This document shows positions 3,988-30,845 of a stretch of 64,000 nt of DNA, piece after piece. Within the stretch, counting starts at the first letter, position 1. Every line of letters begins with the position of its first letter. Location of the stretch: assembly GCF_021391495.1 (NCBI RefSeq), contig NZ_CP090063.1, forward strand, positions 6,634,001-6,698,000, written 5' to 3'. The stretch comes from Amycolatopsis acidiphila (GTDB lineage: Bacteria > Actinomycetota > Actinomycetes > Mycobacteriales > Pseudonocardiaceae). The position numbers and the translations under genes are program-made. The notes under the pieces were generated by a model that ran no database searches, was not told where the DNA came from, and saw only the letters and a program-made list of their open reading frames with translations.

Positions 3988-4063
3988 GGTACGGCCGGCG
4001 CGGCAACGCACCGGCCGGAGTCGCACACTCTCAGCTACCCCGGCCCATTCCGCGGCAAACCTG

Positions 4064-4091
4064 GGTTTCACCGGGGTGCCGGGCGGGGTAC
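4064..4091 (+). promoter_or_regulatory. SigF/SigB promoter, leaderless, for the PfkB kinase
   Basis: GGTTTC (4064-4069), 16 bases, then GGGTAC (4086-4091) is an essentially perfect SigF/SigB-class promoter. Transcription should start about 7-10 bases on, at or beside ATG 4101, which has no SD. Confidence 0.7.
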
Positions 4092-19549: not shown

Positions 19550-20770
19550 ATGGTGAGGACTCAGGCCCGGCCACGCCTGCGCTCGGCGCTGGCGAACGGC
19601 GAGTTCCGCACTGTCTGGCTGGCCGAAGCGCAGTCCACCGTCGGTGACCAGCTCACGACCGTCGCGCTCGCCCTGATGGTCTACCATCGCACCGGCTCCG
19701 CGCTGCTGTCCGCGACCGCCTACGCCCTGACCTTCCTGCCTGCCCTCGCGGGCGGGCTCGGGCTCGCCCAGCTGGCCGACCGCTACCCCCGCCGGACCGT
19801 GCTCGCCGCCTCGGCGGCCGTCCAGGCGGTGTTCGTGGGCGTGATGGCCGTGCCCGGGATGCCGCTGGTGCCGCTGTGCGTCCTCGTGGTGCTCGCCCGG
19901 CTCGCGGGCGCGCCCTCCAACGCCGCGCAGAACGCGCTCACCAGGGAGATCTTCGACGACGACGAGCTGTACCTGCGCAGTCAGGACATTCGCGGCATCA
20001 CCACGAACACGGCGATGCTGCTGGGCCTGGCCTGCGGCGGCTTCCTCGTCACCGCGGCGGGCCCCTCGGTGGCGCTGGCCATCGACGCCGCCACGTTCGC
20101 CATCAGCGCCCTCGCGCTGTATCGGTGGGTGGCGACGCGGCCCGCCGCCGACAACGGGGACGGCGGCTGGTTCGGCGCGATCCGCTGGGTCAGCGGGCAG
20201 CGACGGCTACGGGTACTGCTGGGCCTCTCCTGGCTCGTGGGGCTCGCGGTCATCCCCGAAGGGCTCGTGGCGCCGCTGGCCCGCGAGATCGGGGCACCCG
20301 ACCAGGCGGTGGGCTGGCTGCTCGCGGCCGACCCGCTCGGCTTCGTGATCGGGGTGTTCCTGATGTCCCGTTACGTCTCCGCGGAGACGCGCAAACGGGC
20401 GCTGGGCGTCCTCGCCATCGTGCCGACGGCGTTCCTGCTCGTGTTCGCCGTGCAGCCGGACCTCGTGTTGTCCCTGGTCGCCCTCGCGGCCGCGGGTGCG
20501 GCCGGGGCGTACATCGTCACGGTGGGCGCCTCGTTCATCACGTGGGTGCCCAACGAGCTCAGGGGCGGTGCGGGGGGTTTGTACCGCACCGGGCTTCGGG
20601 TGGCCCAGGGCGTGGGTGTCGCGCTGGGTGGCGCCGTGGCGCAGTGGCTCGGTTCGGCCACCACGGCGATCACGATCGCGGGCGCGGCGGGCGTCGTGCT
20701 GGGCATCCCGCTGGCCGTGTGCTGGACCCGCCTGCAGCGCAGGGCCGCCGAAACGGCCGGCGCGCTATGA
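19550..20770 (+). CDS. MFS exporter
   Basis: A 406-residue 12-helix major facilitator protein. The loop-2/3 motif is LADRYPRRTVL (near residue 73-83), and the second half starts near 205 after a hydrophilic GDGGWFGAIRWV linker. It resembles multidrug or enterobactin-type exporters of actinobacteria more than sugar importers. ATG 19550 has SD-rich sequence (GGGGGGGAG and AGGAAG). The stop is only 22 bases from the minus-strand micro-ORF array, with which it is convergent. Confidence 0.8.
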   Translation: MVRTQARPRLRSALANGEFRTVWLAEAQSTVGDQLTTVALALMVYHRTGSALLSATAYALTFLPALAGGLGLAQLADRYPRRTVLAASAAVQAVFVGVMAVPGMPLVPLCVLVVLARLAGAPSNAAQNALTREIFDDDELYLRSQDIRGITTNTAMLLGLACGGFLVTAAGPSVALAIDAATFAISALALYRWVATRPAADNGDGGWFGAIRWVSGQRRLRVLLGLSWLVGLAVIPEGLVAPLAREIGAPDQAVGWLLAADPLGFVIGVFLMSRYVSAETRKRALGVLAIVPTAFLLVFAVQPDLVLSLVALAAAGAAGAYIVTVGASFITWVPNELRGGAGGLYRTGLRVAQGVGVALGGAVAQWLGSATTAITIAGAAGVVLGIPLAVCWTRLQRRAAETAGAL

Positions 20771-20792
20771 GGGGGCACGCTGCCGGTACTCA

Positions 20793-20813
20793 TCAGAAGT
20801 CGCGGTTCGACAC
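20793..20813 (-). CDS. micro-ORF 4, hexapeptide MSNRDF
   Basis: Last of the four in minus-strand order. The start is GTG at 20811-20813, codons TCG AAC CGC GAC TTC, then TGA at 20793-20795. The SD GGAGGTG (complement of 20821-20827) is seven bases upstream. The arginine codon is CGC here and CGT in the other copies, a synonymous change. Translation is inferred from signal and conservation only. Confidence 0.45.
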   Translation of the reverse strand: MSNRDF

Positions 20814-20871
20814 AACCAGTCACCTCCAGTTTTTGCCGATGAAACAAACGCGAAGCAACGCGGTCGCCGGA

Positions 20872-20892
20872 TCAGAAGTCACGGTTCGACAT
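20872..20892 (-). CDS. micro-ORF 3, hexapeptide MSNRDF
   Basis: The start is ATG (20890-20892), codons TCG AAC CGT GAC TTC, then TGA. The SD region reads GGAGAGGTG (complement of 20899-20907), six bases upstream. This is the only copy with an ATG and the only one with a 2-base insertion in the SD. Confidence 0.45.
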   Translation of the reverse strand: MSNRDF

Positions 20893-20944
20893 GAAGAACA
20901 CCTCTCCCGTAGCAGCGAAACAATCAGGATTTCAGGCAGAACGA

Positions 20945-20965
20945 TCAGAAGTCACGGTTCGCCAC
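20945..20965 (-). CDS. micro-ORF 2, hexapeptide MANRDF
   Basis: The start is GTG (20963-20965), codons GCG AAC CGT GAC TTC, then TGA. The SD GGAGGTG is the complement of 20973-20979, seven bases upstream. It is the only copy with Ala in place of Ser at position 2; both residues would allow removal of the initiator Met. Confidence 0.45.
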   Translation of the reverse strand: MANRDF

Positions 20966-21022
20966 GACGAGCCACCTCCACACACCACGTACACAAACAA
21001 CCACGTACAACTCCGCACACCA

Positions 21023-21043
21023 TCAGAAGTCACGGTTAGACAA
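21023..21043 (-). CDS. micro-ORF 1, hexapeptide MSNRDF
   Basis: First in minus-strand order. The start is TTG (21041-21043), codons TCT AAC CGT GAC TTC, then TGA. The SD GGAGGTG is the complement of 21050-21056, six bases upstream. Ser is coded TCT here and TCG in two other copies. Confidence 0.45.
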   Translation of the reverse strand: MSNRDF

Positions 21044-21056
21044 GAAGAACACCTCC

Positions 21057-21225
21057 GATCGGTGCTCGCGGCCGGGCAAGGACGAACTACTGTGGACGAG
21101 CTCCTCGCCTGCAGGGTCCGTCGTATGCGGTGGGATGATACCTGTTGAAGGAAAGTACCCGGCGTCCTTCCGGGCATAGCAAAGTTACCCCGTCAAAGCG
21201 GGCTTCGTCGAGAGAAGGTGATCCA
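21057..21225. promoter_or_regulatory. divergent control region of the micro-ORF array and the GGDEF gene
   Basis: This 169-bp region should hold promoters for the minus-strand array and the plus-strand GGDEF gene. Two short hairpins are seen near the GGDEF side (CCCGG/CCGGG at about 21158-21174; CCCG/CGGG at about 21189-21202). A minus-strand pair TTCAAC-N18-TACGAC (about 21119-21148) is a weak promoter candidate. I could not match a known c-di-GMP riboswitch. Confidence 0.3.
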
Positions 21226-22671
21226 GTGCCACCGCCACCGCCACGGCCGGGATCACCGACACTGCCGGGCGAAACCACCACCTCGTCGGGCGGGGAGCCG
21301 TCCGGGGCCGTCGACCCGGATGTTCCGGGCCGGCCAACCGGAGGCCGCCCTCCGGCGGACACGACGAGTGATTCTTCGAGCACTCGCCGCACCTACAAAC
21401 CACAATATTGGGCATTGTGGCGGCGACCCCAACCATTCATCGCATTCCTCGTCGTAGCGGAAGTCGCCGCCATTGGGTGGTTCGTCCACGTATTCCTGGA
21501 CACGCCCGCGCCGACCCGTCTCGATTTGCTGCGGTTCGCGATTCTCACGGCCGGCGCCACCGTGCACATCCAGATGACCCGCCGCCAGGAAGAACGGCGA
21601 CGAAATCGTGTTCGCACGGTCCTGATCGACCTCACCGCGGTCTGGGTGTTTCCGGCCGCGATTATTCTTCCGGCACAGCTGACGATCGCGCTGGTGCTGC
21701 TGATTCGTATCCAGCACTGGTTCGTCGCGCGCCGCCCCGCACACAACTTCGTCTTTTCCTCCATCACGCACATGCTCGCCGCGACGGTGGCGCACCAGGT
21801 GTTCGTGACACTCGGCGGGACGCACTGGGACTCGCTCACGGTGGCGTCCTCGTTCGGCGAGTTCGGCAAGCTCGTGCTCGTCGGGCTGGTCTACGAAGCC
21901 GTGCAGATCCTGTACGTCGGCAGCATCCTCAGCCTCGCCGCGCCGTCCAGGCCGACCGTCCACAGCGTCCTGGGCAGCAAGGCGGACAACCTGCTGGAGG
22001 CGATCACGATCGGCCTCGGCGCGGTCACCGCGATCATGCTGGTGATCCTGCCCCCTGCCGTCGCGATCATGGCCGTGGTGACCGTGGTGTTCAACCGGCT
22101 CGCCGAGCTCGACCAGCTGCAGGACGACGTCCGCACCGACCCCAAGACGCAGGTCTACAACATGCGCGGGTGGACGGAGTCGGCCGAACGGGCGCTGTCG
22201 CGGGCGGCCAAGTCGGACGACAACCTCGGCATCCTGATGATCGACCTCGACTACTTCAAGTGGATCAACGACACCTACGGCCATCCGGCCGGTGACGACG
22301 TGCTCCGCACCCTCGCCCAGCTCCTCGACGACGTCACCAGGCCCAGCGACGTCGTCGGCCGGTTCGGCGGCGAGGAGTTCCTGGTCCTGCTGCCCGAGAC
22401 CGACCAGGCGACGGCCACCGGCGCGGCCGAGCGCATCCGGTCCGCGGTCGCGGAGCTGCGGATCGGCACCACCGGCAAGCGTGGCGACCAGATCACGGTG
22501 TCGGAACGGACCGCCTCGATCGGGGTCGCCGTGTACCCCGACCACGGCGATTCGCTGGTGCAGCTGATGCAGGCCGCCGACGCCGCGGTGTACGAGGCGA
22601 AGGAGGGCGGCCGCAACCAGGTGCGCCTGGCCGAGCACCGGCCCCAGCACGGCGCGAACCCCACCCACTAA
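21226..22671 (+). CDS. membrane-bound diguanylate cyclase (GGDEF)
   Basis: A 481-residue protein that would make cyclic di-GMP from GTP. A proline-rich cytosolic start (about 1-55) is followed by several membrane helices (about 70-285) and a C-terminal GGDEF domain. The active-site motif is GGEEF in VGRFGGEEF. RPSD five residues before it is an intact RxxD inhibitory site, so product inhibition is expected. MIDLDYFKWINDTYGHPAGD is the metal/nucleotide region. GTG 21226 has SD GAGAAGG; a longer TTG start at 21145 is less likely. Confidence 0.88.
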   Translation: MPPPPPRPGSPTLPGETTTSSGGEPSGAVDPDVPGRPTGGRPPADTTSDSSSTRRTYKPQYWALWRRPQPFIAFLVVAEVAAIGWFVHVFLDTPAPTRLDLLRFAILTAGATVHIQMTRRQEERRRNRVRTVLIDLTAVWVFPAAIILPAQLTIALVLLIRIQHWFVARRPAHNFVFSSITHMLAATVAHQVFVTLGGTHWDSLTVASSFGEFGKLVLVGLVYEAVQILYVGSILSLAAPSRPTVHSVLGSKADNLLEAITIGLGAVTAIMLVILPPAVAIMAVVTVVFNRLAELDQLQDDVRTDPKTQVYNMRGWTESAERALSRAAKSDDNLGILMIDLDYFKWINDTYGHPAGDDVLRTLAQLLDDVTRPSDVVGRFGGEEFLVLLPETDQATATGAAERIRSAVAELRIGTTGKRGDQITVSERTASIGVAVYPDHGDSLVQLMQAADAAVYEAKEGGRNQVRLAEHRPQHGANPTH

Positions 22672-22737: not shown

Positions 22738-24870
22738 ATGATCGCCCCAGCCGAAACCCCGCGCCTGAGGCGGCCGCTGTCGACCTCGGCCTGGCTGCTG
22801 GTGCTGACGCTGGCCCTACTGGGATTCGGTTTCGTCGCGTCGCGCCCGTCCGCGCCGCCGGACCACGGTCCGCCCACCGGCGGCGCCGCGGCGGCGCAGC
22901 GCGCGATCGAGGCGCTCACCCATCCCGGTGGCCGGCCGACGGCGCTGAGCCTGCTGCCCGCCGACTTCACCCAGGTCACCGGCGTCGTGCCGGGCTCGCT
23001 GGCGGCGCGCGACGGCACCGTCCGCGCGGTGCACGTCGACGGCGGCTGCTCGACGCCGTGGGGCGACGACAACACGAAGTGGGACTACAGCGTCCCGTGC
23101 AAGGCGCACGACCTGGGGTACGACCTGCTGCGCTACGCCGACAAGATCGGTCAGCCGCTCGCGCCCGACGTACGCGCTTCGCTCGACGGCCGGCTCTCGG
23201 CCGACATGCACAACGCCTGTCGCGTCAACCCGATGGACTCGCCGCGCACCTGTCAGGTCGTCGCATCGCTGTACTCCGCCGGCCTCGTGGTCAACTCCTG
23301 GCACCAGCGCTGGGGCCCGCCGGTCGGCGACCCGATCGGGCCGATGCTCGCCGGGGTCGCGGTGATCGGCTGCCTGCTGGTGTTCCGGCTGCGCGGCTGG
23401 CTGAGCACCCGCCGCGCCCGCCCCCCGCGAGCGGCGGCGGCACCCGCGCCGGCTCCGGCCTCGGGCTGGGTGACCCTCGGCGTGACCAGCCTCGTGCTGC
23501 TGATCTTCGGCGAGTCGATGATCCAGCTGGCCAGATGGGCGGGCGTGGACGAGTCGTGGCTGTGGCCGCTGACCTGGCTCGCGCAACTGGCCCCGGTGTT
23601 CTTCTTCGCCGGTGGCCGGGCCAACGCGGTGGGCTGGCAGGCGGTGTTCGAGGGCGGCGGCGGGTACCGCCAGTACCTGGCGCACCGGGCGAGCTGGCTG
23701 CTGCGGCCCGCGCTGATCTTCGTGGTGGTGACCCTCGTCGTGCCCCTCGCGCTGGAGCTGCTGGGCATCCCCGCGAGCACCAACGCGACCATCGTGCGGG
23801 TGGCGCTGCACCCGCTGTGGCTGCTGGCCGTCTACCTGCTCACCGTCGTGGCCGCGCCGGTCATGCTGGCACTGCACCGGCGCGCCGCGCTGACGACCAC
23901 GCTCGTACTCCTCGGGTTCGTCGTGCTGGCCGAGCTCGGCGCGGGCTGGTTCGGGTCGAAGATCCCGCACTACGCCGCGGCGTTCGGGCTCGCGCTGCTC
24001 GCCCAGCAGCTCGCCTTCGGGCGGGTGCTCGCGGCGAGGCGCCGCTGGCTCGTGCTCGGCGCGCTGGCCGGCCTCACCGGCCTCGTGCTGCTGACCACTG
24101 TGGGCCACCTGACGCCGAACCTGCTCGGCACGCCGGGGGCGCCGCCCGCCCTGGCCGCGCCTGCGCTGCCGGTGCTGCTGCTGGGCGCGGTCCAGCTGTC
24201 CCTGCTCGGCCTGTCCGCGCGTCCGCTGAACCGGCTGACCGCGCAACCCGTGCTAGCCGGCGTGGTCCGCTTCGCCCTGCGCGCGCCGATGAGCCTCTAC
24301 CTCGGGTTCCTCGCGGCCGTACTGCTGCTCGTGACGGTCGTGTACCTGCCGTCACCGGCGTCGGCCGCGCTGGCCTGGCTGACCGGCCCGCGGACGCTGA
24401 TGGCGCTGGGCCTGCTCGCCGCGCCCGCGGTGATCGTGTTCTGGTGGTTCGAGCGGCACGGCGACGGCTCGGTCCCGCTGCACCAGACCCGGCCGACCGG
24501 CTGGCTGGCGCACGCCGCGACCGCGCTGGGCACCGGTTTCGCCACGATCGGGCTGTTCGGCTTCGCGCTGACGCAGTTCGGCGGGGACACCGGCCACACC
24601 ATGCTCGGGCTGCCGCTGGACCCGATCCAGAACCTCATCCAGCTGCTGCTCGGAGTGTTCCTGCTACATGCCGTGCGGACCGGGCTCAGTGCGGCGACGA
24701 GCACCTGGGTGGTGACTGCGCTCGCGTGCGGGCCACCGCTGTTGGAGGTGGCTGACGGGTACACCGCCGACACGGTGACGGTGCTGGTCCACGGGCTGAC
24801 GGCGCTGTTCGCCGTCGCGGCCGCGGCCAGCACCCTGCTGCCCGCCAGGACGGTGGTGGAAAACACGTAA
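22738..24870 (+). CDS. phospholipase A2 / acyltransferase-3-like membrane fusion
   Basis: A 710-residue protein. Helix 1 (about 18-35) exposes an outer domain whose CKAHDLGYD (about 121-129) and paired cysteines match prokaryotic phospholipase A2, where His-Asp cleaves the sn-2 acyl chain. After a second helix and an Ala/Pro linker come about ten more helices. GESMIQLARW and PVFFFAGGRANA resemble acyltransferase-3 proteins, and the last part (LDPIQNLIQLLLGVFLLHA) resembles DUF4383. Hydrolysis and re-acylation in one chain suggest lipid remodelling, but this is inferred. ATG 22738 directly follows the 66-bp gap after the GGDEF gene. Confidence 0.7.
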   Translation: MIAPAETPRLRRPLSTSAWLLVLTLALLGFGFVASRPSAPPDHGPPTGGAAAAQRAIEALTHPGGRPTALSLLPADFTQVTGVVPGSLAARDGTVRAVHVDGGCSTPWGDDNTKWDYSVPCKAHDLGYDLLRYADKIGQPLAPDVRASLDGRLSADMHNACRVNPMDSPRTCQVVASLYSAGLVVNSWHQRWGPPVGDPIGPMLAGVAVIGCLLVFRLRGWLSTRRARPPRAAAAPAPAPASGWVTLGVTSLVLLIFGESMIQLARWAGVDESWLWPLTWLAQLAPVFFFAGGRANAVGWQAVFEGGGGYRQYLAHRASWLLRPALIFVVVTLVVPLALELLGIPASTNATIVRVALHPLWLLAVYLLTVVAAPVMLALHRRAALTTTLVLLGFVVLAELGAGWFGSKIPHYAAAFGLALLAQQLAFGRVLAARRRWLVLGALAGLTGLVLLTTVGHLTPNLLGTPGAPPALAAPALPVLLLGAVQLSLLGLSARPLNRLTAQPVLAGVVRFALRAPMSLYLGFLAAVLLLVTVVYLPSPASAALAWLTGPRTLMALGLLAAPAVIVFWWFERHGDGSVPLHQTRPTGWLAHAATALGTGFATIGLFGFALTQFGGDTGHTMLGLPLDPIQNLIQLLLGVFLLHAVRTGLSAATSTWVVTALACGPPLLEVADGYTADTVTVLVHGLTALFAVAAAASTLLPARTVVENT

Positions 24871-30771: not shown

Positions 30772-30845
30772 GCGCCCGTAGCCCAATTGGCAGAGGCACA
30801 CGGTTTAGGTCCGTGCCAGTGAGAGTTCGAGTCTCTCCGGGCGCA
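30772..30845 (+). tRNA. tRNA with UAG anticodon (reads CUA, Leu) but class-I architecture
   Basis: A 74-nt cloverleaf. The acceptor is GCGCCCG/CGGGCGC, with discriminator A. The D arm (GCCC/AGGC) has one C-A mismatch and GG in the loop. The anticodon stem CACGG/CCGTG has loop TTTAGGT with TAG at 30806-30808. The variable loop is only five bases (CCAGT), and the T arm is GAGAG-TTCGAGT-CTCTC. Normal bacterial tRNA-Leu is class II with a long variable arm, so this is atypical. No CCA is encoded. Confidence 0.8.

Follow-up and report, generated by a model that had tools for sequence, protein, structure and literature searches.

What does a bacterium gain from four consecutive genes of six codons each, every one with its own ribosome-binding site? 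The question is raised by a stretch of 64,000 nucleotides from Amycolatopsis acidiphila (contig NZ_CP090063.1, positions 6,634,001 to 6,698,000; "the window" hereafter means this whole stretch), in which an array of four micro-open reading frames (micro-ORFs) occupies positions 20793-21056 of the minus strand, Shine-Dalgarno sequences (SDs) included, between the plus-strand genes of a major facilitator superfamily (MFS) transporter and a membrane diguanylate cyclase. Codon comparisons strongly support selection on the encoded peptide rather than on the DNA, and a putative module of peptide array, membrane diguanylate cyclase and, usually, MFS transporter is well supported by the comparison of loci. 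We consider it probable, at roughly 60%, that the neighbouring cyclase has as its ligand short peptides that are made by the ribosome and multiplied to raise their dose; export by the MFS protein and an effect on cyclic di-GMP (c-di-GMP) output would complete the circuit. ORFs of such length are generally passed over by gene finders, so ordinary annotation would miss the family.

The micro-ORF array and its relatives

Each unit in the window consists of an SD, an NTG start codon, codons for (S/A)NRDF and a TGA stop, all on the minus strand. Micro-ORF 1 (21023..21043; TTG TCT AAC CGT GAC TTC TGA, M-SNRDF), which also has the support of relatives, follows the SD GGAGGTG at 21050..21056; micro-ORF 2 (20945..20965; GTG GCG AAC CGT GAC TTC TGA, M-ANRDF) follows GGAGGTG at 20973..20979; micro-ORF 3 (20872..20892; ATG TCG AAC CGT GAC TTC TGA, MSNRDF) follows the altered SD GAGAGGTG at 20899..20906; and micro-ORF 4 (20793..20813; GTG TCG AAC CGC GAC TTC TGA, M-SNRDF) follows GGAGGTG at 20821..20827. 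The distance from SD to micro-ORF is 6-7 nt in all four units, and successive starts lie 78, 73, and 79 nt apart. The core CGYGAYTTCTGA matches four times in the window, at the four units, where 0.02 matches are expected by chance and none of 100 shuffles of the window reached four; a longer pattern (two or fewer mismatches) matches the whole genome of the strain at these four places only. The initial annotation, made from the sequence alone, was thus accurate in its description of four tandem six-codon units with their own SDs, down to the codons, the start codons and the single altered SD.

That annotation had also proposed a wider search for the pattern, and the search found a family. The SD-plus-ORF pattern with two or fewer mismatches matched 25 of 61 relatives, at least three of these matches (L001, L002, and L022) being chance occurrences that lack a stop at the right place. 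A stricter, exact pattern retrieved 51 stretches from GTDB-220 genome contigs, 49 of them from Amycolatopsis, Prauserella, Saccharomonospora, Lentzea, Haloechinothrix, or Qaidamihabitans; the other two come from a strain labelled Nocardia sp. NRRL S-836, whose synteny is Lentzea-like, and from one metagenome-assembled genome. The RDF pattern is present in 68 of 249 Pseudonocardiaceae genomes and its reversed control in none, although a rough estimate puts chance hits at a few per 249 genomes. A tandem pattern neutral to the peptide, with only GAGG, NTG, a CGN codon, GM, and TGA fixed, matched 67 of the 249 genomes (reversed control, 0); in a class-wide sample of 394 genomes, three of them in Pseudonocardiaceae, it matched two genomes and its reversed control likewise two, and both genomes with the tandem pattern (that of the window and one other) belong to Pseudonocardiaceae.

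RDF-type units have the form M-x-(N/D/S/G)-RDF and number 1 to 10 per locus, with an additional five-residue form, MSRDF, in the clade around A. orientalis; within such an array residue three is constant (degenerate edge units in L049 and L060 excepted), while residue two and the third codon bases vary. Cyclase homologues in genera without RDF matches are accompanied by arrays encoding other peptides (SRDW, NREY, NRES, DREA, NRDM, SRDN, NRDS, DRAW, TREH, NRAW, and DRDW), a range beyond what the single sequence seen by the initial annotation could show. In all, 74 relatives' arrays with 318 units and 2-23 copies were collected, the highest copy number being that of L268 (MRSRDW, 23 copies); the median period is 72 bp, and some arrays hold recent unit duplications (L073 and L295). 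More than one array can occur in a genome: several have two or three, which encode different peptides (SRDN, NRDS, and DRAW in G021). The family is apparently large and undescribed: no description of such arrays was found in the literature searched, a search that left most subscription papers and preprints outside its reach. Two loci (L219 and L224) have, at the array position, ORFs of 19 and 14 residues that end in DRDF and DRDL, which suggests that only the C-terminal part matters there. A second MSNRDF micro-ORF was noticed in a Lentzea-type genome (L115; G025:C51, about 4049-4069, minus strand), its ATG overlapping the TGA of a small transmembrane (TM) protein behind a response regulator gene; it may be a chance hit.

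Selection on the encoded peptide

Residues are numbered here from the C-terminal end, −1 being the last. Calling of the units required R at −3 and a common residue at −2, so these two columns are excluded as evidence; the codon of residue −4 played no role in unit selection. Across the 74 arrays, within-array codon differences at −4 comprise 455 synonymous and 0 non-synonymous changes, those at −1 comprise 49 and 12, and those at −5 comprise 252 and 165, while differences in the triplets beyond the stop are mostly non-synonymous. These units are not independent, since many loci are close relatives; when only neighbouring units are compared, the ratios of synonymous to non-synonymous differences are 91:0 (−4), 20:2 (−1), and 64:72 (−5), and when only six-residue units are used, they are 280:0 (−4) and 49:1 (−1). 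Serine codons of the AGY and TCN types are mixed within an array in seven arrays of six-residue units, or 18 if five-residue forms are counted. The peptide rather than the DNA is therefore what is selected, a strongly supported conclusion that agrees with the initial annotation: codons at −4 differ freely within arrays and never change the residue.

The same arrays are uniform within and diverse between loci, the pattern expected of specificity groups. Residue −4 is uniform in 74/74 arrays and residue −1 in 72/74, against means of 7.2 and 8.5 uniform arrays after permutation of the units between arrays. Relatives retain the starts, SDs, and stops, and the random codon changes with lost starts or stops that the initial annotation had named as counter-evidence were not seen, a few degenerate edge units aside (for example, MSGCDF before the DRDF units of L049 and, in L060, a second unit MANRDW after MSNRDF). 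Translation of the units is a step we infer from these codon patterns.

A likely −10 element of an array promoter, TATCAT, lies at 21135..21140 on the minus strand, 97 nt upstream of unit 1. It came from comparison of relatives; a scan with the sigma-70 consensus returned no promoter. Among the 41 RDF-type arrays, 34 have TATCAT at a distance of 70-133 nt ahead of unit 1 (shuffles, 1.3%); of the 33 non-RDF arrays, two have it within 160 nt. Two other candidate DNA elements fared poorly: a BldD-like box (AGTRA..TCAC) was present in 3/61 regions against 0.8 in shuffles (largest value, 2), which is unconvincing, and CA[TC]AGT[AC]G showed no enrichment (2/61 regions; shuffles, 0.78). A leader peptide or attenuator was rejected, as the next downstream gene is usually on the other strand.

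The cyclase and transporter partners

The gene head-to-head with the array (21145..22671, plus strand; exact start codon uncertain) encodes a membrane diguanylate cyclase (PF00990, 5.9e-47), a partner that the initial annotation overlooked. Its predicted layout comprises six TM helices, resembling an S-component, a stalk helix, and a GGEEF domain with an RxxD inhibition site. The window protein carries both sequence marks of an active diguanylate cyclase: GGEEF, in the form GG[DE]EF present in 87 of the 90 cyclases that accompany an array or single unit, and the RxxD product-inhibition site (RPSD) five residues before it, present in 82 of the 90 homologues. Of the three cyclases without GG[DE]EF, two have GGEEI and the sequence of the third is cut short. 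Where the neighbouring ORF is longer or contains repeats (L224, L248, L253, L258, and L259), the cyclase has GGEEL, GGDEI, or GGDEL at this motif.

The membrane domain is predicted to resemble the S-components of energy-coupling factor (ECF) transporters, with sequence identities of 7-15% to RibU, BioY, ThiT, and FolT; a fold search with the whole cyclase returned GGDEF structures only. S-components bind vitamins for uptake with an ABC motor, whereas this domain is joined to GGDEF. Three proteins were scanned, and the N-terminal domain rose above no Pfam cut-off in any of them, the best match being MASE9 (PF20972, 4.2e-4) for L268 and none being obtained for the window protein. The general design, a multi-TM N-terminal sensor domain followed by GGDEF, is that of membrane diguanylate cyclases with MASE-type sensors such as MASE9, beside which the searches made turned up no peptide-ligand genes.

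A cyclase was found in the fetched stretch for 71 of the 74 arrays, and it is adjacent and head-to-head in 71/71, so that a peptide gene would stand next to its candidate sensor; two of the remaining arrays (L053 and L067) lie near a stretch edge and the third (L071) has a partial gene only. The non-RDF array loci from the tandem-pattern scan had a cyclase in 20/20 fetched cases, and four of five further distinct arrays have a head-to-head cyclase, the fifth starting at a contig end. Approached from the cyclase, 71 homologue loci with matches into the N-terminal region were available among the matches listed, 60 in the family (L227 and L256 being the same gene) and 11 outside it. A peptide-blind test found a divergent array at 21 of these 71 loci, among the matches listed, and none on the same strand or in shuffles. 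Of the 47 loci that lack an R-type array (46 distinct genes), 8 have a single R-containing unit in divergent orientation (7 distinct genes), again among the matches listed, with none on the same strand and 0.02 in shuffles. GGDEF-only homologues gave 0 arrays in 16, a weak control, as many of these genes extend past the fetched 1.5 kb.

On the other side of the array lies an efflux-type MFS transporter gene (DHA/EntS-like; 19550..20770, plus strand, with a probable core start at 19550). The protein has MFS domains (PF07690, 7.5e-26; PF05977, 1.2e-11), and its nearest NCBIfam models are 2A0121 and EntS, all below curated cut-offs. The initial annotation rightly noted this gene as the convergent neighbour and missed its role as a recurrent partner: an MFS gene stands beside 63 of the 74 arrays (identity 37 to 68% among the matches listed), convergent downstream, same-strand downstream, or beyond the cyclase. 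It is present at 12 of 31 cyclase loci without an automatically called peptide, among the matches listed. Pairwise distances of MFS and cyclase are correlated (r 0.92 over 80 loci holding both, with or without an array; 0.80 in 42 non-RDF-type loci). In two species of one genus (L112 and L113, g49), one MRNRDF unit precedes the MFS gene on that gene's strand, and no cyclase adjoins it; six other g49 genomes have no match to the RDF pattern. Across genera the cyclase and mostly the MFS gene are retained while the remaining neighbours change.

The design extends beyond the family. In four other bacterial families, arrays stand divergent to cyclase homologues, with RDNTWT in eight copies, NSNSW in seven, RGWKWS in two, and SRAWDW in three; these arrays occupy 4 of the 11 outside loci, among the matches listed, with an MFS gene at all four. 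Since unrelated peptides thus occur in the same trio, the conserved feature is the tandem short-peptide design and not the RDF sequence. Several array-less cyclase paralogues have, in the same place and divergent from the cyclase, a single ORF with internal repeats: GNEW six times (L258 and its relative L259), SEWH four times (L239), SNNW four times (L253), DDSNWVR three times (L226), and PSEWTR twice (L242). Relatives of the GNEW protein in the protein database are hypothetical proteins. The single and intragenic-repeat peptides were chosen by eye, unblinded, and twelve readings were re-translated. That a short peptide is multiplied in two different ways next to one kind of cyclase speaks for the peptide as the product.

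A candidate peptide signal and its rivals

The computed basis for a mechanism comprises the units, amino-acid selection, within-array uniformity, cyclase-MFS linkage and co-divergence, the catalytic motif, and the predicted fold; export, binding, the direction of control, and c-di-GMP output are what we infer from it. The array would be a multi-copy gene for one short peptide (M-x-N-R-D-F in the window), read into a single transcript, probably from the TATCAT promoter, with each unit translated from its own SD, so that one transcript would yield several identical leaderless hexapeptides. Their Met would be removed where residue 2 allows, and the peptide would leave the cell through the MFS pump to be bound from outside by the cyclase's S-component-like six-helix domain, the signal passing through the stalk helix to alter c-di-GMP output. 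Paralogous modules with different peptides would avoid cross-talk; up to three such arrays occur in one genome and are candidate peptide-receptor channels. Tentatively, and at somewhat short of even odds, we suggest a novel class of communication between bacteria, widespread among filamentous actinomycetes, in which leaderless hexapeptide pheromones, encoded by tandem micro-genes or one-ORF repeats and exported by MFS proteins, are read outside the cell by an S-component-like receptor-diguanylate cyclase. Among the functions offered by the initial annotation, a peptide signal fits best, and a modified peptide or a sequestering minigene fits less well.

No MFS gene was found at 11 of the 74 arrays. 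Seven of them are in full stretches (two NRDS, two NRES, and three NREY) and the other four (L068, L214, L225, and L276) in stretches that are short or cut; the single units of g55 and g66 likewise have no MFS gene beside them. These arrays, and peptides without a leader or signal sequence, would suit a cell in which the peptides remain inside as ligand or inhibitor of the cyclase or the MFS pump, the units raising the dose with nothing exported; the longer internal-repeat ORFs, such as that with six GNEW copies, could then be uncut multivalent binders. We regard this as unlikely, though worth keeping in view: the efflux-type MFS co-diverges with the cyclase, it stays with the peptide even where there is no cyclase, and the predicted S-component fold is one whose ligand is normally bound from outside.

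A role of the peptides as minimal precursors of a ribosomally synthesized and post-translationally modified natural product (RiPP), exported by the MFS protein with the cyclase as regulator, is improbable. Their size is near that of MccA (7 aa) and of biarylitide precursors (5 aa), an MFS exporter is close by, and the RDF, RDW, and REY endings bear reactive side chains. However, Pfam was applied to five genes of the window (GGDEF, MFS, short-chain dehydrogenase/reductase [SDR], acyl-CoA ligase, and phospholipase A2-like), and among these there is no cytochrome P450, ThiF-like adenylyltransferase, radical SAM protein, or other obvious modifying enzyme; the constancy of cyclase and MFS amid changing neighbours speaks against it, and the last residue takes so many forms from array to array (F, W, Y, S, A, M, N, H, and L) as to be ill-suited to one modifying enzyme.

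The two precedents differ from the present arrays. Microcin C7 mccA is likewise a leaderless gene, of seven codons, whose whole product is the precursor and which has an MFS exporter, MccC, but it is single-copy and its product is modified by the ThiF-like MccB, whereas the present family reaches 23 copies, has a diguanylate cyclase as constant partner, and shows no MccB-like protein among those five genes. The bytA-type biarylitide precursors are also actinomycete genes of 5-6 codons, but they adjoin a cytochrome P450 that cross-links aromatic residues, and none is present in the same set.

Nor is it at all likely that translation itself is the function, through minigenes that tie up ribosomes, tRNAs (the initiator or others), or the capacity for SD binding, or that the array acts as a regulatory RNA. 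Minigenes are known to be toxic through peptidyl-tRNA drop-off, each unit has a strong SD, and the ORFs are very short; yet the serine switches within arrays alter the tRNA and not the residue, the last codon is free to differ between arrays, and some homologues are single longer ORFs with repeats. A sequestering minigene predicts neither these internal-repeat ORFs nor the conserved-residue pattern. As to RNA, folding of 20780-21140 gave a z of +1.31, i.e., less structure than in shuffles, and in an Rfam scan of the window no family reached its gathering score at the array. The idea that the units are DNA repeats (binding sites, mobile or structural repeats) read as ORFs by accident, for which the regular period and recent unit duplications could speak, is contradicted by synonymous differences within units beside freely changing triplets after the stop and by retained starts, SDs, and stops, and no DNA motif beyond the SD was noticed across arrays of different peptides (none was searched for inside units), which leaves it with a negligible chance.

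The proposed secreted peptide ligand has partial parallels. The Gram-positive quorum-sensing systems (Agr AIP, Phr, Rgg/SHP, and PapR) also place a peptide gene next to its cognate sensor and form specificity groups, but their peptides begin as longer precursors that carry a leader or a signal for export, and the receivers are kinases or RNPP regulators, in contrast to leaderless six-codon ORFs and a probable cyclase output here. The RGSGR peptide of PatS/HetN in filamentous cyanobacteria is similarly very short and acts in a bacterium that forms multicellular filaments; it derives from one longer ORF and targets a transcription factor, with no arrays and no cyclase.

In actinomycetes, c-di-GMP sets the timing of development and of antibiotic production. 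Should the peptides prove to be ligands, this second messenger would gain gene-encoded, cheaply synthesised signals with matched receptors, and specificity would be directly testable with added five-residue peptides. Raising peptide dose through one SD per copy, in up to 23 copies, would be a device for which no precedent was found, and a ligand class would be suggested for a membrane sensor domain without a curated-family match in this analysis.

Two further features of the window lie outside the proposed module. The gene at 22738-24870 on the plus strand, which adjoins the cyclase on the same strand, encodes a large membrane protein whose phospholipase A2 domain (PF09056) is marginal; homologues of similar size follow the cyclase in many Amycolatopsis, Prauserella, and Saccharomonospora loci, and not in Lentzea. 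The sole Rfam match in the window is a tRNA gene at 30772-30845 (plus strand).
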